The notes under the pieces: generated by a model | What the model was told of the DNA's origin: nothing | Database searches by the model: none | The model's input: the letters and a program-made list of their open reading frames with translations, nothing else | Assembly (NCBI RefSeq): GCF_000349845.1 | Contig: NC_020829.1 | Span: 5,632,308-5,696,307, forward strand | Origin: Pseudomonas sp. ATCC 13867 | Lineage (GTDB): Bacteria; Pseudomonadota; Gammaproteobacteria; Pseudomonadales; Pseudomonadaceae | Direction: 5' to 3' | DNA: 64,000 nt | Made by a program: the position numbers and the translations under genes | Shown: positions 1 to 12,002 of the stretch, one piece after another | How positions within the stretch are numbered: the stretch's first letter is position 1 | How the letters are laid out: each line of letters begins with the position of its first letter

Positions 1-3000
1 CATATTTAACAATATCAGCCTCTGCATGCCCCGTGCCTGCGATTACCTTTTCCCCAGACTGCAACGTCACACCTGGACGAAGATAACCACGTGGCTCACT
101 TGTACTGACCAAGACAGAGCGAGCACCGTTTGCATCTTCTACTACCGCCACTCCCATAGTTATTCGCCCTTTGGAGTTAGCGGGTATCTGGGCTTGTAAT
201 TCACTCACACGATTTTGGACAAGATCAGAAGGTTTCTCATAGGCAAGACCGCGCCCAACAGATTGACCTCCCCCTTTTGGGACTTGCGGAGCCGGCAGCT
301 TACCCAATCCCTCGACCAGATCAGCAGCCTCAGATACTTTACCTTCCTTGTAAAGAGCCTTCGCCTTGCCCAGGATCTTCCCGGCGGCATCCCCAATGCC
401 CGGGACCAAGCCTATGCCGGCCATCGTGTAATCGAAGGGGTCCTGTGCCTCAACAAAGCTTTTGGCATCGCCATAACCCGGAATGAAATCCGAGCCAAAA
501 CTGACCATCGCTTCGGCCAGACGCTTGGAGTCAGCTGCCGTTATCGGGTTATTAACCGCCAGGTTGCTCTGCAGCTCCGCAGTGATGGTGTACGCCATCA
601 ACTGGGGATTCTGCCTAGCCTGTTCGGCCTGCTCCCAACCTTCGGCACTCCAACTGGCCTTCTGCAGACTTCTCGCTGCTTCAAGCGCTTCCTTGCGTAG
701 CGCCGTGCAAGTCGCACCGTTGCCCCCTGGTGAGCACGCTGCGAGTAGCGCCAAGTCACGATTGCGGTCGAGCTGATTTAGCTCATCAACGCGGCCACAA
801 GCGGTTGAGTCCCCGCCGTTGCATGCCTTCTTGGCCTCGAAGCGCTCCTGGTTTTCTTCGTGGTTGAGGTAGTTGTACTGAACAGAGTTCTTCGCCGCCC
901 AAGCCCCTGTTTCGAGCTGACTGGAACTGGCATTGCTGTCCTGCGCCACGGCGCCGATCAGGCCCACCAGTTGCGAACTCATGGTCAGCAGCGCTTCACG
1001 GTTTTCCGGTGAATAGCCGCTGACCAACTTGTCCAGGTCTGCTACCAAGGCTTCGTTGAGGCCGGCACCTGCCGCACCTGCAGCGAAGCTATCACCACGC
1101 GCTTGTGCGGCGAGGCCACCCATCAAGGCGTGCATCACCACCATTTGCGCATCACCAGCCTGTAGGCCGTGCGTGCTGCCGAAGTCGCCGATGGCGTTGA
1201 AGCCCGCCGCCGCGAAGGTGTTGTAGACGCTGTCCTTGAGTGCATCACCAAAACTGCCACCCTGCCCCATGGTCTTGCTCAGGGCAGTGCTGGTGATGTT
1301 TTGCGCAGCCTGGTTGGCGGCGAAACGACTGACACCACTGACGTCGCTCAGGTCCACCGTGACCTTTTTGGTAATCGGGTCAGTCTTGGTGTTCAGCATG
1401 TCATCGAAGTAGGCGGAGGTCAGGCCGCCAACGAGGCTGGCAATCGCCATCTGCTTAAGGTTGTCGCTACTGAAGCTGTCGCTGAGGACTTTGCCCAGGT
1501 CTCCCTTGTTGTTGATCAGGCTGACGCCAGCCGTTCCTGCGAGACTGCCTGCCGCCCCCACACCAGCGCCCATGGCAAAGCTGCCTCCGGCAACGCCGGC
1601 ACTGCTGAGAGCCCCCGCCGCTGCCATACCGCCAATAGCCGCCGCCGCGATAGCAACAGCCAATTGCGTGGCCGGGCCCATGCCGGAGCTGCTGTAGCTG
1701 TAGGAATCGTGGAATTCCTGCACCGCGCGCCAATCAATATCCCCGCGCGCCTCGGCATCTTTCAGCCACGCCAGGTTCGGATCGGCCTGCACCATCGCAT
1801 CGATGGCCTGGCTCACGGACTGCTGGTCGAGGTGCTTGTAGTCGATCTTCAGCCCGTCCACGGCCTTGATCGTCAGGTTGCCCTGAGCGATCAACTCGCT
1901 CTGCCGCACGGTTTCGTCGGTCTTGCCCTTGCCCTTGGCGCTGCTCCAGGCAAGGTCGCTGTTGCTCTTCTCGTGGCTCTCCTGGTGCAGGTCCTTCACC
2001 GCTTCGAAGGTGACTTCGCCGCCGCTGAGAATGGCGATGTCATTGCCCGCCTCCAGTTTGGCGCCCTGGTACTTCTGGTCGCCACCGCTGAGCAGGGTGA
2101 TGTCGGCGCCGGCGCTGATTTCGCTGCCCACGGCTTTGACGTCGGTGACTTCGTCACGCTGGGTCTTCTTCTTGCCCCAACTGCCCTTTTCTTTCTTGTC
2201 GTAAAGGCTGTAGTCGCTGTCGTTGGCGGCGAGCAGTTCGATCTTGTCGCCGGCCACCAGGTAGGCTTCATTGCCGGCGCCGATCTTGCTGCTGACGAGG
2301 GTGAGGTTTTCGCCCGCGCTGATCAGGACGTCGCCACCGGCGTTGACCTCGGAGGCCTGCTGGCCGACGTGGTCTTCCTGGGTGGTGATCTTCTTGCCGC
2401 CGCCCTTGTACTTGGCGTCGCTGTGTTCTTCGTTGGCGGCGGAGGCGAGGACTACGTCGCGCCCGGCGCTCATGGCGATGTCGCGGGCGGCGTCGATGCG
2501 GCTGGCGACGGCGCTGAGGTCGCGGCCGGCGTTGAGTTCGAGGTTGCCGCCAACCTGCACCTCGCTGCCGTGCTGGGTGACGCTGGTGACGTTGCCGGTG
2601 ACGCGGCGGCTCTGGAAGTCGAAGCTGTCGACCTCCTGCGCGGCCTCCAGGCGCAGGTCGCGTCCGGCGGTAAGGTCGGCATTGCCGCCGGCCTGGATGA
2701 CACTGCCGGCGCTGATCAGGTCGCGGCCGGCGGTGATCTCCAGGTCGCCGCGGGCTTCGATGCGGGCGGCGTTGTTGGCGATTTCCTTGTGGATGCGGTG
2801 GGCCTCGTTGCTGGCGTCGACCGAGGTGATGCTGCGCTCGTTGATGACGTCGCCGGTCAGCGCGGTGAGGCTGACGTCGCGGCCGCTGATGATGCCGCCA
2901 GCCGCGTTGCGGATGCTGTCGACGGCCAGCAGGTCGAGGCGGTTGCCGGCTTCGATCAGGCCGCTGTTGTTGATGTTGGTGGCGCTGGCGGCGAGGTCGC

Positions 3001-6000
3001 CGCTGGCGCGCAGGGTGCCCTGGTTGGTCAGGTTGCCGCCGCTGATCAGCGACAGGTCGTTGCCCATGATCAGGGCACCGTTGGCGGCCAGGCGGCCTTC
3101 GGCCTGGGCGAGGTAGAGCACCGGCACCAGGACCTTTTCACCATTGATGGTGGCTTCTTCGAGCCAGACGATATCGTGGGTCAGCGCGGCGACCTGCTCG
3201 GCGGAAAGGCCGACGCCCAATTGCAGCTGGAGGCTGTCCTTGTAGGCGATGGCGTTGTCCATCAGGTACTTGAACAGGGCTTCGTCGCTGGCCATGCCGT
3301 CGATGTAGCGCTGGCCGGTGCGGGCGATCACCGCCTGCTGGATCAGGCGCTGTTCGTAGAGGCCGTCGCCGAGGCGCTTCTGTGCCTTGTCCGGGTCGTA
3401 GCCGAGCTGGCCGAGCAGGTAGTCGGAGCCGAGGAAGCTCTTCAGGTTGGTCAGCTCAGGGTTGGTCTCGACCAGGTATTTGTGGCTGTTGTCCGGTGTG
3501 GCGCTGCTGGGCAGGCCCTGTACGCGCGGGACGTTGAGGGCCGCGCCTGACTGGGCATCGGCGCTGGCGACGTTGCCAGCCGGGACGACACTGCCCGCGC
3601 CAGGCGCAGCGCCGTCGAGGCTCCGTTCGCGCTGCGCGGCGCTGATGCTCTGGCCGCTGAAACTGAGATCGCCCGCACCCTGCACTGTGCCGGTGCTGCC
3701 GCCGGTGCCGCCCTGGCCGCTGAGGCGGAAGAGGCCGTTTTCGCCCTGCGGCAGGCTGAAGCCCGGCAGGGTGACGGGGTTGACCTGCTTCTGCGCGAGG
3801 TCCGGCGGCAGTTGCGAGGTGATCGCCAGTTGGACGGTGGTGGCGCCGTTGGCAACACCGACGTCGCGCGGGCTGATGGTCTGCGCACCGGCGTCGCGCT
3901 TCACCACGCTGTTGTCGAAGCGTTCGCTGGCGTTGATCACCACATCGCCGGCGGCCTGGATCACCGCGGAGGCGGCGGGAGAGCCGGAGACCGCTACGTC
4001 GGAAGTAGTGATGTTGTAGAAGCCATCCGGGAAGCCACCGGAATCGAAGACTTGCTGGCGGGTCAGGCGGCCGGGATCGTAGTCCGGAGAGTTCGGGTCG
4101 TTGTAGCTGTTGTAGAGGTCCTTGTTGGTACGGAAGACCCAGTACTCATTGTCGTTGCGGGTGTAGAACTCGGCGTTGTAGTGGCGCTCGACGCCGCCAG
4201 CGGCGCCCTGGTTGCGGAAGGTGGCCGTCTGGATGTCGATGTTTCCGCCCGAGCCAATACTGCTGTAGAGGTTGTCGAAGGAGCCGCCACGGAAGCGGAA
4301 GTCGCCGCCGGCGGTGATCGACGCCTGCGGCGCGTCCTTGAGAATGACGTCCTCGGAGCGCTCCTGGGATAGGAAGTGGACTTCGCAGCCCTTGCCATCG
4401 CAGACGTCGTCGTACTTGAACTGGATGCTGCCGGAAACAATGCGCTCGCCGATCTGGAAGTCGTCGGCACGGCGGTTGTCGAAATCCTGCACCAGCAGGG
4501 TCATGGCGCCGGCGCTTTCGAAGCTGCCGGAGATGTTCTGCACGCTGCTCGCCCAGCCTTCCTGGTCGTTGGCGGCGATGTGCAATATGCCCAGGCTGTA
4601 GAGGTCGGCGTTGCGGTTGGTGAAATTCTGCATGCGCAACTGCATGTTGCCGCCACTGAAGATCAGGCCGTTCTCGTTGAGCAGGTTACCGGCGCCCAGA
4701 TACAGATTGCCGGCGCTGCCGAGGGTACCGCGGTTGTTGAGGCTGGCGGCGCTGACGCGCAGGTCCTGGGTGGCGGTCAGGCGACCGCCGTTGTCGAGGG
4801 TGCCGCTGCTGTTGATGACTGTCGTCGCGCCACCGCCTCCAATGCTGCCACTCTGGCCGATACCGATGTAGCCAGCGCCGAGGGACAGGCTGCCCAGGCT
4901 GCTCAGGCGGCCATCGGCGGTGTAGTTGCCGCTCAGATCGAGATCGAGCGTGCCATCGCTGGCGATCAGGCCGGCGTTGGCCCAGTTGCCGCCGCGGCCG
5001 ATGAGGCTCTGCGCGGCCAGCAGCTGGCCGTTGGCGCCCTGGTTGAGCTGGCCGATATCCAGGTTCAGGTTGCGTGCCTGGATGATGGCGTTGTTGGTCC
5101 AGCTGGCGGCCTGGTAGGTGAGGCTGCCGTTGGAGGTGAAGTTGCCGCCGGCAAGGCCGGCCTGGCCGAGGTCGACGCCGAAGGTGCCGGTGCCGACGTG
5201 CAGCACGTTGCCGCCGCCGTTCTGCAGGGCGCCGGTCTGCAGGATCAGGTCCTGGGTGGCGCCTTCGATGCGGCCGAGGTTGTTGTTGAGCAGGCCGCCG
5301 CTGACGATCTTCATCTGGCTGGGGCTGGCTGCGCGCATCAGGCTGGCGGGCGTCTGGCCCAGCGCGCGAATGGCGCCGACCACGTTGTTGATGCTGGCTG
5401 CGCCGAGGGTCAGGTTGCCGCTGCTTTCGATCAGTCCGAACTGGTTGTTCAGCGCGCCGTTCAGGCTGGCGTCGATACTACCGGCGCCGATCTTGCCGCC
5501 TTGGCCAAGTGCTGTGCCGTCGTTGAGCAGCTGGTTGCCGTGCAGGTAGAGCAGGTTGCCGGCGTAGAGGCCGCCGCCCTGGTTGTTCAGGTCGGTGGTG
5601 CTGATGCGGTTGTCGCCGCTGACCGCCGAGAGGTGGCCGGCGCGGTTGTCGATGCCGCCCGTGGCGGTGATATCGAGGCCCTTGGCCTGGGTGGTGCCGG
5701 CGTTGTTGCTGAAGGTGCCGGTGACCAGCTTGAGGTTGCCGTTGGCGGCATTGATGACACCGCCGTTGCTGTTGTCGAGGCTGGCGCTGCCCAGGTCGAG
5801 CTGGCCGGTCTGGCTGATGATGCGGCCGTTCTGGTTGCCGAGGGCGCCGGTTGTCTTGAGGGTGGTGTCGCCCTGGCCCTGCAGGGTGCCGCCGCCGTTG
5901 GCGATGCTGGCGGCGCTGAGGTTGAGCTGGCCGGCCTTGCTGAAGACCAGGCCGTCCTGGCCGTTGAGCAGTTCGGCGGTGAGTTGCAGGGTCAGGTCGT

Positions 6001-9000
6001 CCTGCGCGGCCACGGTGCCGCCGACGCTGTTGTCGAAGCGCCCGGCGAGGACCTTGAGCAAACCCTGGCTGGCGAGCTGGCCGCCACGGTTTTCCAGGCT
6101 GCCGACGCTCAGGTTGAGCGGGCCGCCGCTGGCGATCTTCGAGCCGGCGCCGTTGTTCAGCAGCGCGCCGAGCAAGCCCAGGCGCAGCGCGCCCTGGCTG
6201 ACCAGGCTGCCGCCGCTGTTGTTCAGGCTGGCGGCGTCGTAGTCGACGCTGGCCGCGCTGATCTGCCCGGTGCGGTTATCCACAGCCTTGGCGCTGCCAG
6301 TCAGGCCGCCCTGGGCACTGAGCAGGCCGCCGTTGCTATTGTCCACGTCGCCGCCCACGGTCAGGCCGAGCCCGCCCTGGGTGGAAACGATGCCGCCGGC
6401 GTTGTTCAGGCTGCCGGCGCCAAGGCCGAGGTTGCCCTTGCTGACCAGCGCGCCGGCGTCGTGGTTGTCCAGCGCACCGCTGACCGTCAGGGTCAGCGCG
6501 CCATCGCGGCTGGAGAGCGTGCCGCTGCTGCTGTTGTCCAGGCTGGCGGCGTTGACCAGCAGGCCTTGCCAGCCGGAGAGCAGGCCTTGGCTTACGTTGC
6601 GCAGGGCGCCGGCGTTCAGTTCGAGCTGGCCGGCGCTGATGATCCGGCCGCTGTCGCCGTTGTCGAGCTGGCCGCTGGCCGTGAGCGCAAAGCCCTGGCT
6701 GGCGGAAATTTCCCCGCCCCGGTTGTCGAGGTTGCCCAGGCCGTTGATCTGCAGGGCGCCGGTGGCGCTGAGCAGGCCGCCACGGTTGTCGAAGTCGCCG
6801 CGCTGGGCGCCGTTGCCCAGGTCGAGGGTGACCTTGCCTTCGCCGATCAGTGCGGCCTGGCGCTGGATCAGTTGGGCGACGATCAGGTGCAGGTCGCCCT
6901 TGGCGGAGATTTCCCCGCCGTCTGTGGATTCGAGCTTGCCGCCGCGCAGGGTCAGCGCGCCCTGGCTGGTGATCAGGCCACCGGGCTTGCCGGTGGCGCT
7001 GGCGCCGTTGAGGACGTTGCCGGCGCCGAGGTCGAGGCCCAGGGCACCGCTGATCACACCGTCGCGGTTGTCGAGGTCGGCGGTGCTGGCGTCGAGGCGG
7101 CCCTGGGCGAGCAGGCGGCCGTCGCGGTTGTCGGTGCTGCCGGTGGCCAGCAGCAGGTCGCCGGTGGCGGACAGCAGGCCACCCTGGTTGTTCAGGCTGG
7201 CGCTGCCGACATTGAGCTTGCCGCTGGCGACCAGTGCGCCGTCGCCGTGGTTGTCCAGCGCGCCCTGGCTGCGCACGAGCAGGTCGCCCCGGCTGGCGAG
7301 GGTGCCGCCCTGGCTGTTGTCCAGGCTGGCGGCGCTGACGCTGAGGCCGTTAGTTCCGGAAAGCACCCCGGCGTTGCTGTTGTTCAGCGCGCCGCTGGTG
7401 AGGGTCAGACGGTCGCCGGAGAGGATCTTTCCGTCCTGGTTGAGCAATGTCCCGGTAGTGAGGGCGAAGGCGCGGTCACTGGAGATTTCACCGCCCCGGT
7501 TGTCGAGACTGACGACGTTGCGCAACACCAGTTGGCCGGGGCTGCCGAGCAGGCCGCCGGCGTTGTTCAGGGCGCCGCCCTGGAGGTCGAGGTCGACGCC
7601 GCCCTGGCCGATCAGCTGGCCGCCGCCATGCTGGTCGAGGCCAGCGATGCGGCCGTCGATGACGCCGCGCGCGGAGAGGCTGCCGCCCTGGCTGTTGTCC
7701 AGCTGGACGGTGGCGAGGTGGATGGCGGCGTCGGTGACGATGCGACCCTGCTGGCTGTTGTCGAGCTTCGCGCCTTGCAGGCGAATGTCGCCGGCGGCGC
7801 TGAGGAGGCCGCCGGCGTTGTTCAGGTCGGCGCCGGCAAGGTCGATGCTGCCGTCGCTGAGCAGCTTGCCGCCGCGGTTGTCGAGCGCACCGGCGAGACG
7901 GGAGAACAGCAGGCCGGCACTGGAGACCGCGCCCCCACGGTTGTCGAGGCTGCCGGCGTTGAGGGTCAGGCTGCCCTGGCTGAGCAAGGCGCCGTTACCG
8001 CTGTTGTCGAGCGCGCCGGCCAGTTGCAGCCAGAGGCTGTTCTGGCTGTTCACCCGGCCGCCCTGGCTGTTGTCCAGGCTCTGCCCGGTGATGCTCAGGC
8101 CGTCGCGGCCGGCCAGGGTGCCGGCGCGGTTGGCGATGCGCTGCACCTGCAGGTCGAGGCCGGCGTCGCCGATGACCTTGCCGGCGCCGTTGTCCAGGCT
8201 GGCAGCCTGCACAGCGACCTTGGCGCGGCTGGAGATTTCGCCGCCCTGGTTGAGCAGGTCGGTGCCTTTGACGCTGACGCCATTGTTGGCGGCGATGAGG
8301 CCGCCGTTACGGTTGTCGAGCTGCCCGGCTTCGAGGTTCAGCGCGCCCTGGGCGAGCAGTTCGCCGCCCTGCTGGCTGAAGCTGTCGGCCTTGGCCTGCA
8401 GGTCACCCTTGGCATTCACGCTGCCCTGGGCGTTGTTCACCTGGCTGGCCGTCAGGCGCAGTGCCGCGCCGCTGTCGAGGGCGCCGCCCTGGCTGTTGTC
8501 CAGCTGCCCGACGTCGATCTTCAACTCGCCCAGGCTGCTGATCACGCCCAGCGCGCTGTTGTTCAGGCTGGCCCCGGACAGGGTCACGCCGGCGTCGCCG
8601 ACCACCAGCCCGCCCCGGTTGTCGAGGGTGCCGGCCTGCACGCCGAGCGCGCCCTTGGCCGAGAGCAGGCCATCGGCCTGGTTGTCGAGCTTCTGCTGGA
8701 CGCGGGCCTGCAGGGTGCCGTTGCTGACCAGGGTGCCCTTGCCACTGTTGTCGAGGCTGTCGAGGGTGAAGTCCAGCGACTGCTCGGCGGAGAACAGGCC
8801 CAGGCGGTTGTCCAGCGCGCCGCCGCTGACTTGCACGCGGTTAGCGACGGCCTGGCCGTTGCGGTTGTCCAGACGCGCGGCGCTGAGATTCAGCTGGTCG
8901 CTGGCGAGCAATCGGCCCTGGCGGTTGTCCAGGCTGGCGGAGCTGATGCGGGTGGTGGCGCCCTTGAGCGCGCCGCCCTGGTTGTCCAGGGTGCCGCTGG

Positions 9001-10171
9001 CGTTGATATCGAGGTTGCGACTGGCGACCACGCTGCCGCTGTTGCGCAGGTTTTGCGCGCTGATCGCCACATCGCCCTGGGCGTTGCGGCTGTTGTCCGG
9101 ATTCACGCCAGCTTCGAGGATGCTGGTATTGGCCAACTGCGCAGCGGAAAGCTGAATGCGCGAGCCGGCAGCCAGTTGCCCCTGATTGGTCAGCGTTCCA
9201 TTGGCATTCAGTTCGGCAGCACCGGCCGCATAGGCCGGGCCGGTGAGGGCGATGTCCTGGGCCCTGGCGCGCAGGTTGCCGGCGGCGCTGGTGCGGGCCA
9301 GGGTCAACTGGCCGTTGGCGTCGATCTGGATGTCACCGCCGCTGGCGGCCATGTTGCCGGCGAGTTTTACCCCGACGCCCTGCTCGGTGCCCACCAGGCG
9401 GATGGCGCCGGCGTACATGCCGCCCAGCGCGGAGCTGTCGATCGCCAGTTGCGGCTTGGCGCTGCCGTCGTCGGCCTTGGCGGTGGCGGCGAGGGTCTCG
9501 GCGTCCACCTGGTTGCGGCCGGTCACCACGGCGAGTTGCTGTGCGTAGAGGTCGGCGTTGAGCTTGGCACTGCGGGTAATCAGCTCGAACTGGTCGAGGT
9601 TGCTGGCGTTCAGGCCGGCGCCTTCGACGCTGATCTCGCCGCCGTCGACGTCGTAGCCACGCAGGCGCTCGCCATCCATCAGCGGCTTGCCGGTGGTCAG
9701 CGTGGCGCGCGGAGTATTGATGAAGCCGCAGCCGTTGCAGGTGATGCCGTGGGGGTTGGCGACGATGACGTGGGCTGCCTGCCCGGCCACTTCGGTGTAG
9801 CCGCGCAGCTGCGAGGGATTGGCCCCGGTGACTTCGTTGAGGATCTTGTTGGCCGCGCCACCCTTGAGGTTCGGGTTGCCGACGATGATCCCGCCCAGTT
9901 GGGTGGACTGGGTCTTGCCGGTGGCGTTGTTGAGGATCAGGCCGTTCTGCCCGACGTTGTAGTCGCTGAACCTGTTGTGGGAGAGGCCCGCGCCGTTGGG
10001 CGTGGCGATGTTCACCACGGGCACGCCGTTGCCCGCCGCGCCCAGGTGCGTATTGCCACCGGCTGCCGCATCCACCGCCAGCTCGGCCGCTGCCGCAACG
10101 ATGGGGTTGAGGATCAGGATGCCGGAAAGCACGCTGGCAATGGCCTGGTACAGCGGGTGGCGTACGTCCAT
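1..10171 (-). CDS. cdiA: CdiA-type two-partner secretion exoprotein (partial, runs off left edge)
   Basis: A single minus-strand frame runs from the ATG at 10169-10171 to the left edge without a stop, at least 3,390 codons. The start follows a GGGAG ribosome site. Residues 1-30 look like a signal peptide. Residues about 48-165 form the TPS/haemagglutination domain with NPHGITCNGCGF at 139-150. Then come more than two dozen FHA-type repeats with an LDNRGG-like core (about 9.2 to 5 kb). A DUF637-like hydrophobic Ala/Gly region lies near 1.7-1.3 kb. VQYNYL (residues 3097-3102) sits where CdiA proteins carry VENN. A pretoxin-like segment (FIPGYGDAKS, near residue 3230) follows. The last visible residues contain GTGHAEADIV with HAE at 3382-3384, the first zinc motif of deaminase toxins; the expected PCxxC and the immunity gene lie outside the window. 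Family knowledge: such proteins are exported by CdiB and deliver the C-terminal toxin into neighbouring cells. The role as CDI toxin is inferred. Confidence 0.93.
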   Translation of the reverse strand, partial: MDVRHPLYQAIASVLSGILILNPIVAAAAELAVDAAAGGNTHLGAAGNGVPVVNIATPNGAGLSHNRFSDYNVGQNGLILNNATGKTQSTQLGGIIVGNPNLKGGAANKILNEVTGANPSQLRGYTEVAGQAAHVIVANPHGITCNGCGFINTPRATLTTGKPLMDGERLRGYDVDGGEISVEGAGLNASNLDQFELITRSAKLNADLYAQQLAVVTGRNQVDAETLAATAKADDGSAKPQLAIDSSALGGMYAGAIRLVGTEQGVGVKLAGNMAASGGDIQIDANGQLTLARTSAAGNLRARAQDIALTGPAYAAGAAELNANGTLTNQGQLAAGSRIQLSAAQLANTSILEAGVNPDNSRNAQGDVAISAQNLRNSGSVVASRNLDINASGTLDNQGGALKGATTRISSASLDNRQGRLLASDQLNLSAARLDNRNGQAVANRVQVSGGALDNRLGLFSAEQSLDFTLDSLDNSGKGTLVSNGTLQARVQQKLDNQADGLLSAKGALGVQAGTLDNRGGLVVGDAGVTLSGASLNNSALGVISSLGELKIDVGQLDNSQGGALDSGAALRLTASQVNNAQGSVNAKGDLQAKADSFSQQGGELLAQGALNLEAGQLDNRNGGLIAANNGVSVKGTDLLNQGGEISSRAKVAVQAASLDNGAGKVIGDAGLDLQVQRIANRAGTLAGRDGLSITGQSLDNSQGGRVNSQNSLWLQLAGALDNSGNGALLSQGSLTLNAGSLDNRGGAVSSAGLLFSRLAGALDNRGGKLLSDGSIDLAGADLNNAGGLLSAAGDIRLQGAKLDNSQQGRIVTDAAIHLATVQLDNSQGGSLSARGVIDGRIAGLDQHGGGQLIGQGGVDLDLQGGALNNAGGLLGSPGQLVLRNVVSLDNRGGEISSDRAFALTTGTLLNQDGKILSGDRLTLTSGALNNSNAGVLSGTNGLSVSAASLDNSQGGTLASRGDLLVRSQGALDNHGDGALVASGKLNVGSASLNNQGGLLSATGDLLLATGSTDNRDGRLLAQGRLDASTADLDNRDGVISGALGLDLGAGNVLNGASATGKPGGLITSQGALTLRGGKLESTDGGEISAKGDLHLIVAQLIQRQAALIGEGKVTLDLGNGAQRGDFDNRGGLLSATGALQINGLGNLDNRGGEISASQGFALTASGQLDNGDSGRIISAGQLELNAGALRNVSQGLLSGWQGLLVNAASLDNSSSGTLSSRDGALTLTVSGALDNHDAGALVSKGNLGLGAGSLNNAGGIVSTQGGLGLTVGGDVDNSNGGLLSAQGGLTGSAKAVDNRTGQISAASVDYDAASLNNSGGSLVSQGALRLGLLGALLNNGAGSKIASGGPLNLSVGSLENRGGQLASQGLLKVLAGRFDNSVGGTVAAQDDLTLQLTAELLNGQDGLVFSKAGQLNLSAASIANGGGTLQGQGDTTLKTTGALGNQNGRIISQTGQLDLGSASLDNSNGGVINAANGNLKLVTGTFSNNAGTTQAKGLDITATGGIDNRAGHLSAVSGDNRISTTDLNNQGGGLYAGNLLYLHGNQLLNDGTALGQGGKIGAGSIDASLNGALNNQFGLIESSGNLTLGAASINNVVGAIRALGQTPASLMRAASPSQMKIVSGGLLNNNLGRIEGATQDLILQTGALQNGGGNVLHVGTGTFGVDLGQAGLAGGNFTSNGSLTYQAASWTNNAIIQARNLNLDIGQLNQGANGQLLAAQSLIGRGGNWANAGLIASDGTLDLDLSGNYTADGRLSSLGSLSLGAGYIGIGQSGSIGGGGATTVINSSGTLDNGGRLTATQDLRVSAASLNNRGTLGSAGNLYLGAGNLLNENGLIFSGGNMQLRMQNFTNRNADLYSLGILHIAANDQEGWASSVQNISGSFESAGAMTLLVQDFDNRRADDFQIGERIVSGSIQFKYDDVCDGKGCEVHFLSQERSEDVILKDAPQASITAGGDFRFRGGSFDNLYSSIGSGGNIDIQTATFRNQGAAGGVERHYNAEFYTRNDNEYWVFRTNKDLYNSYNDPNSPDYDPGRLTRQQVFDSGGFPDGFYNITTSDVAVSGSPAASAVIQAAGDVVINASERFDNSVVKRDAGAQTISPRDVGVANGATTVQLAITSQLPPDLAQKQVNPVTLPGFSLPQGENGLFRLSGQGGTGGSTGTVQGAGDLSFSGQSISAAQRERSLDGAAPGAGSVVPAGNVASADAQSGAALNVPRVQGLPSSATPDNSHKYLVETNPELTNLKSFLGSDYLLGQLGYDPDKAQKRLGDGLYEQRLIQQAVIARTGQRYIDGMASDEALFKYLMDNAIAYKDSLQLQLGVGLSAEQVAALTHDIVWLEEATINGEKVLVPVLYLAQAEGRLAANGALIMGNDLSLISGGNLTNQGTLRASGDLAASATNINNSGLIEAGNRLDLLAVDSIRNAAGGIISGRDVSLTALTGDVINERSITSVDASNEAHRIHKEIANNAARIEARGDLEITAGRDLISAGSVIQAGGNADLTAGRDLRLEAAQEVDSFDFQSRRVTGNVTSVTQHGSEVQVGGNLELNAGRDLSAVASRIDAARDIAMSAGRDVVLASAANEEHSDAKYKGGGKKITTQEDHVGQQASEVNAGGDVLISAGENLTLVSSKIGAGNEAYLVAGDKIELLAANDSDYSLYDKKEKGSWGKKKTQRDEVTDVKAVGSEISAGADITLLSGGDQKYQGAKLEAGNDIAILSGGEVTFEAVKDLHQESHEKSNSDLAWSSAKGKGKTDETVRQSELIAQGNLTIKAVDGLKIDYKHLDQQSVSQAIDAMVQADPNLAWLKDAEARGDIDWRAVQEFHDSYSYSSSGMGPATQLAVAIAAAAIGGMAAAGALSSAGVAGGSFAMGAGVGAAGSLAGTAGVSLINNKGDLGKVLSDSFSSDNLKQMAIASLVGGLTSAYFDDMLNTKTDPITKKVTVDLSDVSGVSRFAANQAAQNITSTALSKTMGQGGSFGDALKDSVYNTFAAAGFNAIGDFGSTHGLQAGDAQMVVMHALMGGLAAQARGDSFAAGAAGAGLNEALVADLDKLVSGYSPENREALLTMSSQLVGLIGAVAQDSNASSSQLETGAWAAKNSVQYNYLNHEENQERFEAKKACNGGDSTACGRVDELNQLDRNRDLALLAACSPGGNGATCTALRKEALEAARSLQKASWSAEGWEQAEQARQNPQLMAYTITAELQSNLAVNNPITAADSKRLAEAMVSFGSDFIPGYGDAKSFVEAQDPFDYTMAGIGLVPGIGDAAGKILGKAKALYKEGKVSEAADLVEGLGKLPAPQVPKGGGQSVGRGLAYEKPSDLVQNRVSELQAQIPANSKGRITMGVAVVEDANGARSVLVSTSEPRGYLRPGVTLQSGEKVIAGTGHAEADIVKY

Positions 10172-10227
10172 GTGGGAATCTCCCAAGTGCCGGCAGATGC
10201 CAGCTACTAGCTAAAGAGCGAATCGGT

Positions 10228-11836
10228 TCAGAAGAAGAGGTCGACGCGGAAATACACCGGGTGCTCGCGTCGCTCGATGATGTCGGGGCGCTCCAGGGAG
10301 CGCGCCAGGGTCACAGAGGCGGCGGCGTACTGCCCGCGTGCGCTGAACTCCAGGCCATGGCCGCTCATGCGCCCGGAGAGGCCCGGGTTGTATTGGCCGT
10401 GCTCGATGACGCCGAAGTCGTAGGCATAGGCCACGCCGTACTCCTGCACCCAGGGCAGCAGCGGCTCCCAGGTCACGGCGCGGCGCCAGCGCAGCTGATT
10501 GCGCCAGTAGTAACCGGAGTCGCCGGAGAGGGTCTGGTCCTTGAAGCCGCGGATCGAACTGAGGCCGCCCAGGCTGATGCGCTGCGGGCTGTAGAGCACG
10601 TCTTCACTGTGCTGGCCGGTGGCGAGGCTTTCGAAGCTGAAGGCTTGCTCCCACAGCGTGAACGGCTGCAGGTAGCTCAGGGTCAGGCTGTACTTGTTGT
10701 AGCGGGCAGTGGGGCTACCGTGCGGGGCGTCGTGGTCGTCGTCCTGCGCGCCGAAGGCGCCGACGCCGCGCTGCCAGCCGATGTCGGCGTTGACGAAGGC
10801 GCTGCCGACGCGCCGGCCGTGGTTGAAGCCCAGGCTGAATTCGCTGAGGTGGGTGCTGGAAACGTCGAGCAGGGTGTCGTCGATGTAGTTGCGCGTGCGC
10901 TGGTGGCTGAGGCCGAAATTCACCCCGGTCTTGCTCACGTCGTCGCGGAACAGTACGCGCTCGGCGCCCAGTTGATGGGTCTCGTTGTCGCCGTCGTACT
11001 TGAAGGCGAAGCCGGCGTCCTCGTTGCGGGTGCGGTAGTAGTTGCGGCTGTAGCTGTAGTTGAAGGTCCACCAGCCGTAGGGAACGCTGTACCACAGGCT
11101 CTGGTTGTCGGAGTGCTTCCAGTGGTCGCTGACCACATCCTCGCCGTAACGCAGGCCGAACTGGTCGGCCAGGCCCAGCGGGCTGTCCCAGTCCAGCCCG
11201 ACACCGGCCTGCTGTTCACCGGAGGTCGAGTCGCCGTTGTTGTCGCGGCTGGCGCGAGGGCAGGCGGTTGATCTGGTCGACCAGTTGTTCCAGGTCGCGC
11301 AGGTTGAGAATTTCGCCGGTGGCGCCGGGAAAGGTCATGGCCAGCTCGCGCTCGCTGGCCAGCTCCGATTGGTCGAAGCCTTCGAAGCGGCCCTCGACCA
11401 CGATGATCTTCAGCTCGCCGCTGGAGAGGTCCTGCTGCGGCAGGTAGGCGCGGGTAGTGACGAAGCCGCGCGAGAGGTAGTGGTCGGTGATGCCCTTGAG
11501 CAGCTCGTTGAGCTGGTTCACGCCCAGGCATTGACCCTGGTACGGCGCCAGCAGCGCTTCGCGCGAACGCGCGTCGAGGTGCTCGGCACCTTCGAGGCTG
11601 ATGCTGCGGATAGTGAAGCAACGGGTGTCCGGCGCGGTGGTCGGCGGCGCCTCGGCCGGTGCCTTGCCGGGGAGCTGCTGGAGCTCTTCCAGGCGCTGGC
11701 GCTGTTCGCGCAGCAGTTGTTCCTGGCGCTGGCGCTGGAGGTCGTTGTCACCCGGCGAGGGGAGTGGCGCGGCAAAGCTTGCCGAGGCACAGCAGAATGC
11801 CAGGAGAGGCATCCAGCCACGGTAGATAACGTGCAT
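10228..11836 (-). pseudogene. cdiB: CdiB/FhaC-type outer-membrane transporter, broken by internal deletion and frameshift
   Basis: Two adjoining minus frames together encode a TpsB transporter of the Omp85 superfamily, which would export CdiA. The 5' part (11836 down to 11216) starts MHVIYRGWMPLL, has a signal peptide ending near SFAA, a Gln/Arg-rich helix linker and a POTRA domain beginning CFTIRSISLEG. It reads into INRLPSRQPRQQ and stops at 11216. The 3' part (frame ending 10228) reads ASRDNNGDSTSGEQQ onward through the beta-barrel and ends in Phe (VYFRVDLFF), as expected for an outer-membrane barrel. The segment that normally links the two parts, roughly 25-40 residues at the end of POTRA2 and the first barrel strand, is absent and the frame changes near 11246-11256. 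Start 11836 was chosen over upstream Met codons because the signal peptide begins there. An assembly error remains possible. Confidence 0.85.
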
Positions 11837-12002
11837 CCTTTCGATCCCTATCATCTGCCCAACCGGACAGCCCACCCCAAAAGGTCGATAGGATCATAAA
11901 TGATACATGATACCCATAAGCCATCATCTTTTCAGGATGTAAGCATTTTCCCATTTTTATGGGAATTGACGCACAGGAGGGCTTCTCCTGCCCGCCCATC
12001 TG
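11837..12002. other. AT-rich upstream region of the cdi locus
   Basis: This gap between cdiB and the next minus-strand gene is visibly richer in A/T than its surroundings, with repeated ATGAT/ATCAT elements at about 11894-11935 and a small CCCAT-TTTT-ATGGG palindrome near 11950-11966. It probably holds the cdiBA promoter reading leftward, but no convincing -35/-10 pair with 16-18 bp spacing was found. Confidence 0.4.

Follow-up and report, generated by a model that had tools for sequence, protein, structure and literature searches.

The final 64,000 bases of the single 5.70-Mb contig of Pseudomonas sp. ATCC 13867 (G000:C1:5632308-5696307, here called the window) carry most of a cdiA gene belonging to a contact-dependent growth inhibition (CDI) system. 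The 134-residue C-terminus of the encoded CdiA protein is very probably a zinc-dependent CDI toxin of the deaminase fold, which would deaminate a nucleic-acid base and be blocked by the product of the next gene. This reading is based on gene order, motif conservation, predicted fold and toxin-immunity co-occurrence, each observed or predicted, from which we infer the zinc, chemistry, substrate, delivery and inhibition of the predicted toxin. The toxin would be set free from CdiA behind the NYLNHEE/DUF6862 pretoxin segment and would deaminate a nucleic-acid base (less likely a free nucleotide) in the target cell. Zinc would be held by the histidine of an HAE motif and the two cysteines of a PxCxxC motif, the HAE glutamate would shuttle a proton, and water would attack the amino group of the base. 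The next gene would encode an all-helical immunity protein that binds and blocks the toxin.

The minus-strand cdiA frame is open from window position 10186 through the left edge, where its residues end in ...VIAGTGHAEADIVKY. A preliminary description of the window proposed that the edge cuts CdiA after GTGHAEADIV. Indeed, the frame runs on leftward for 44 residues, to a C-terminus of ...SGEKVIAGTGHAEADIVKYANANGLKVIDIGATRPVCASCQNILEPTGANVSTPLKPLPRNKQ and a stop codon at G000:C1:5632174-5632176; the stop-to-stop frame is 3447 aa long. The features of CdiA are as follows (window coordinates).

2..10186, minus strand: cdiA, a two-partner secretion (TPS) exoprotein gene; window part, 3395 of about 3439 residues from TTG, open frame
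9302..10084, minus strand: CdiA TPS secretion domain (PF05860), E 7.4e-56
851..877, minus strand: VENN-equivalent YNYLNHEEN, read from sequence
665..859, minus strand: pretoxin domain DUF6862 (PF21726), hmmscan E 7.8e-19, 67.9 bits against a cut-off of 24.1
2..271, minus strand: C-terminal toxin domain, residues 1-90 of 134, the last 44 lying left of the window; boundary from comparison with a second CdiA C-terminal module (CdiA-CT)
20..28, minus strand: HAE, first half of the predicted zinc site; its partner PVCASC is outside the window at G000:C1:5632246-5632263

The VENN-equivalent and pretoxin-like segment described earlier ahead of the toxin end were thereby both located; the PT-VENN profile itself is below cut-off on CdiA (14.2 against 20.3 bits). 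Fil_haemagg repeats (PF05594, E 1e-55) are also present. The toxin domain boundary was set after GKLPAPQ, because the second CdiA-CT, left of the main cassette, is near-identical up to this point and unrelated beyond it. The layout of a CDI system is present, with cdiB-cdiA-cdiI order, TPS domain, pretoxin segment and exchangeable CT, cdiB being interrupted in this genome.

Past the window edge the frame reads GTGHAEADIV…ATRPVCASC…. A cysteine pair within about 40 residues of HAE had been anticipated and is found 26 residues after the histidine; its form is PxCxxC (P-V-C-A-S-C) and not the anticipated PCxxC, the proline being one residue further from the first cysteine. With E 0.001 as the threshold, the 134-residue domain as query retrieved 96 proteins; a profile search with the threshold at E 0.01 found 285, and use was made of the 120 listed among them. 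Alignments were hand-picked, mainly omitting near-duplicates and short pieces: A1 consists of the query plus 52 of the 96 domain-search proteins, A2 of 81 of them. The core profile matches all 161 toxin proteins analysed. Among the 156 rows spanning H86, E88, C112 and C115 (numbering of P0002), 154 keep every one of these residues; in P0022 the H is replaced, in P0045 the first C. The histidine is present in 158 of the 161 rows and the glutamate in 159, with gaps in 2. The distance from H to C is 26 in 153 of the 156 rows, the proline of PxCxxC is conserved in 148, and the residue between it and the first cysteine is always V (84) or I (72). Since H, E, C and C are conserved across related proteins, the combination of HAE and a cysteine pair is not a chance one, and it satisfies the zinc motifs of the cytidine-deaminase-like superfamily ([H/C]xE and CxxC). 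A second hallmark is TSEPxGYLRPGV (E63 in 160 of 161 rows, R69 in 159 of 161).

A short candidate for the immunity gene anticipated directly leftward of cdiA is also there. It encodes 148 aa (G000:C1:5631731-5632177), and its GTG start overlaps the cdiA stop by 4 bases. Scanning the genome_contigs collection by pattern yielded 20 toxin loci (9 of them metagenome-assembled genomes by title) from six phyla: Gamma-, Beta- and Alphaproteobacteria, Planctomycetota, Actinomycetota, Cyanobacteria, Myxococcota and Deinococcales. With an iterated immunity profile, an immunity homolog was found directly downstream of the toxin in 19 of the 20 loci, covering five of the six phyla; the sole Deinococcales locus, L024, reaches the contig end 158 bases past the toxin match. 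The homolog is split into three pieces in L010, and the toxin frames are broken in L020, L022 and L023. Eight of the 19 loci (L006, L007, L008, L011 and L014-L017) show a 4-base overlap between the toxin stop and a possible immunity start. Such pairing seems tighter than is usual for polymorphic toxins. Within the genus, the toxin was found in 2 of 25 genomes, including the genome of the window. Of the 25 immunity proteins found, set A4 includes 24, and the broad immunity alignment omits the three L010 pieces. Neither the immunity protein of the window system nor the 24 family members searched reached any Pfam cut-off; NCBIfam gave one row far under cut-off (17.2 against 198 bits), and PDB sequence searches with the protein and its profile gave chance-level rows only.

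The AlphaFold2 model of the toxin (pLDDT 90.8) has a deaminase-like fold. An alpha-beta-beta-alpha-beta-alpha-beta core is seen in the model, in which predicted helices 2 and 3 each begin at one of the motifs; there is no helix after residue 122, and DSSP assigns strand there only at residues 125-126 and 130. Deaminases make up 49 of the 50 VIA entries among the matches listed for the model. The placement in the deaminase superfamily proposed earlier is therefore borne out by fold comparison, with modest statistics. Some observations weigh against a delivered deaminase toxin: the top VIA entry is not a deaminase, the Foldseek E-values are weak and, as regards delivery in this strain, cdiB (window 10228-11875) reads interrupted in this assembly. 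The first two, together with the lack of any family match over cut-off, would also fit a metal-binding toxin that uses a deaminase-like scaffold for other chemistry, as a nuclease or with a structural zinc. This is very improbable given that the glutamate of HAE, not known to bind zinc in deaminases, is kept in all 159 rows covering it.

The lack of a family match concerns Pfam and NCBIfam, neither of which gave a toxin-domain match above cut-off. The preliminary description had named several deaminase toxin profiles for comparison; the domain is below cut-off for every family named. PF14424, PF14427, PF14428, PF14437, PF14440, PF14441 and the rest of Pfam-A are not matched by the window domain at their curated cut-offs, and its sole Pfam match at E up to 1 is the OTT_1508-like deaminase family PF14441 (13.0 bits against a cut-off of 27). 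This family is also the commonest weak match among the 53 toxin members compared (34 of 53); the best deaminase E-values among them are 0.0012 (PF00383) and 0.0016 (PF14441). A PDB sequence search with the single toxin domain gave chance-level rows only. In 200 genomes of the phylum, PF14441 was found in 2 genomes at E 0.001, none over cut-off, and PF14440 in 0 at E 0.001. Because 0 of 14 control genomes were positive in either search, these searches are uninformative on membership.

The interrupted cdiB has two parts:

11216..11875, minus strand: cdiB POTRA part, own open frame (PF08479 E 3.4e-30, PF17287 E 1.2e-15)
10228..11136, minus strand: cdiB ShlB barrel part (PF03865 E 3.2e-74), in a frame different from that of the POTRA part

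An overlapping frame at 10935-11621 gave no match. Because the two parts are in different frames, delivery of the toxin is doubtful, unless there is an assembly error or another ShlB-type locus serves; two such loci exist elsewhere in the genome, with open frames of 582 and 574 aa. It is possible, if on balance doubtful, that the locus is decaying and the system has lost its function in this strain, irrespective of the toxin's action elsewhere. Consistent with decay, a third CdiA-CT copy, past the second one on the left, is truncated and adjoins a DDE transposase gene. On the other hand, both cdiA, with its roughly 3439 codons, and the immunity gene remain open, and a set with no annotated break (exporter, TpsA2 and hypothetical protein) is present on the P. 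aeruginosa plasmid pPA1609-475. Its toxin domain is 100 percent identical to that of the window, the immunity proteins of the two sets differ at 7 positions, and about 8 kb further on the plasmid carries an orphan second copy of toxin and immunity gene. Left of the window are two other cassette genes:

L003 10314-12929: second CdiA-CT, with a different toxin end without Pfam match
L003 9763-10317: DUF6990 (PF22499) gene, E 1e-64, the likely immunity gene of the second CdiA-CT

This cassette arrangement is what CT exchange would be expected to leave. Mercy et al. 2016 (PMC4725963) reported orphan modules from P. aeruginosa. The sequence AGGGGACAGATTTATTTT, sought with up to 1 mismatch, occurs 5 times genome-wide, always exact, on one strand and within 6.5 kb of the CdiA cassettes (L003 7103-13611, left of the window); a control with AGGGGACAGATTTATTTT reversed gave 0 occurrences. 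The copies, at cassette edges by eye, are perhaps a scar or signal of exchange.

Comparison with known deaminases may place the family. The sce3516-like toxin deaminases, as characterized by Zhang et al. 2012 (PMC3482391), usually have HAE, have CxxC, occur in proteobacteria and actinobacteria, and are carried by type V secretion/FilH, RHS and HINT proteins, much like the present family. In the latter, carriers include FilH repeats in the window CdiA and HINT in P0104 and P0107, with RHS below cut-off only. The sce3516-like deaminases are also described with a C-terminal hairpin and no helix 4; the end of the model here is without a helix but has only three residues assigned to strand. Distant myxobacterial relatives, found by profile, have HAE...SRPxCxxC (L036, L037) or SRRxCxxC (L038); that of L036 stands behind a HINT domain and that of L037 behind a weak RHS match. 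Since they share HAE with SRPxCxxC or SRRxCxxC and HINT/RHS-type carriers, the present family is most likely, to judge by the published description, a branch of the sce3516-like clade. Zhang et al. also note that H is occasionally D. Phages gave no match to the toxin; viral contigs gave no immunity-protein match and one weak toxin relative (44 percent over 45 residues; L026 4683-5138, plus strand), which has DAE in place of HAE and carries TRPVCVWC. The immunity listed there for sce3516-like domains is Imm-SUKH, an association and not a definition (PMC3482391), whereas the present immunity proteins are all-helical by model, with no SUKH match in 24 members. When sce3516 was sought in the phylum of L020, with scoring limited to 9 candidates in each of 377 genomes, 5 weak matches came up besides the starting genome, one of which, L040, is an ordinary PCxxC deaminase. 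In the literature search 'sce3516' appeared in PMC3482391 only.

Among characterized toxins, DddA (SCP1.201-like, PF14428) and SsdA (DYW-like) are likewise interbacterial toxins of the deaminase fold with adjacent immunity genes, but they are delivered by the type VI secretion system, and their Pfam families are unmatched by the window domain at E 1. Iyer et al. 2011 reportedly describe further toxin deaminase families, which may include the present one. The SsdA immunity protein is given as all-helical (PMC7901873), like the immunity model here. The same account gives DNA as the target of DddA, SsdA and a Pput_2613-like toxin. This speaks against the idea, in itself unlikely, of a deaminase-fold domain that spares DNA and RNA and instead starves or poisons the pool by acting on a nucleotide cofactor or on free nucleotides. 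CdiA of P. aeruginosa LESB58, for which PMC4725963 gives the annotation Toxin-deaminase PF14424, is also a CDI-delivered predicted deaminase in Pseudomonas, but of a different family, PF14424 not being among the matches of the window domain. The main text of a CDI review (PMC9086364) is without 'deaminase' or 'deaminat'.

The immunity model appears to resemble DUF416 proteins, and in the myxobacterial relatives L036-L039 a DUF416 gene is downstream in 2 of 4; L038 and L039 have another gene, with no Pfam match at cut-off. These genes are:

L037 249-1580, minus strand: DUF416 gene directly downstream of a deaminase-like toxin, two DUF416 stretches in one frame
L036 851-1663, minus strand: DUF416 gene directly downstream of a deaminase-like toxin
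L038 461-1345, minus strand, and L039 1533-2255, plus strand: further immunity candidates, downstream frames alike by eye, no Pfam cut-off reached

A sequence-level link between the immunity family and DUF416 is unsupported. PF04222 (DUF416) is unmatched in 24 immunity proteins, and hhalign gave a probability of at most 0.8 percent: 0.66 percent for the broad immunity profile against DUF416 (score 17.0; best of 30 column-shuffled controls 14.7), 0.78 percent against all nine DUF416 sequences and 0.1 percent against three chromosomal DUF416 proteins. DUF416 was found in at least four of 377 genomes (G543, the genome of L036, is not among the four listed); a deaminase adjoins it in one (G381, L048/L051), and the frames tested beside it in the other three had no toxin family match. 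In 396 genomes of the phylum of L016 no DUF416 was found. On plasmids, the myxobacterial DUF416 protein has a single weak match, where no gene is annotated; the toxin end of L037 has no match. A literature search for 'DUF416' and 'toxin' as whole words found 0 papers. E. coli has a DUF416 (PF04222) member, which we take to be YjaG and which presumably sits beside nfi, encoding a deoxyinosine repair enzyme. As a speculation with long odds against it, the P-x-C-x-x-C clade might form its own branch among base-deaminating toxins, with the DUF416 fold frequent in its inhibitors, and the E. coli protein might be a domesticated deaminase inhibitor or deamination-damage factor. If true, this would give a function to the uncharacterized DUF416 family.

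Some deaminase toxins have been turned into base-editing tools, and the characterized ones, as presented in PMC7901873 and PMC10847098, come from few families. The family described here is compact and broadly spread, has a shifted zinc motif and a strongly conserved TSEPxGYLRPGV, and is unrecognized by the Pfam and NCBIfam copies searched; its paired immunity family is likewise unmodelled in Pfam. The toxin-immunity pair makes it testable which bases this branch would deaminate and whether DUF416-type proteins may inhibit deaminases.
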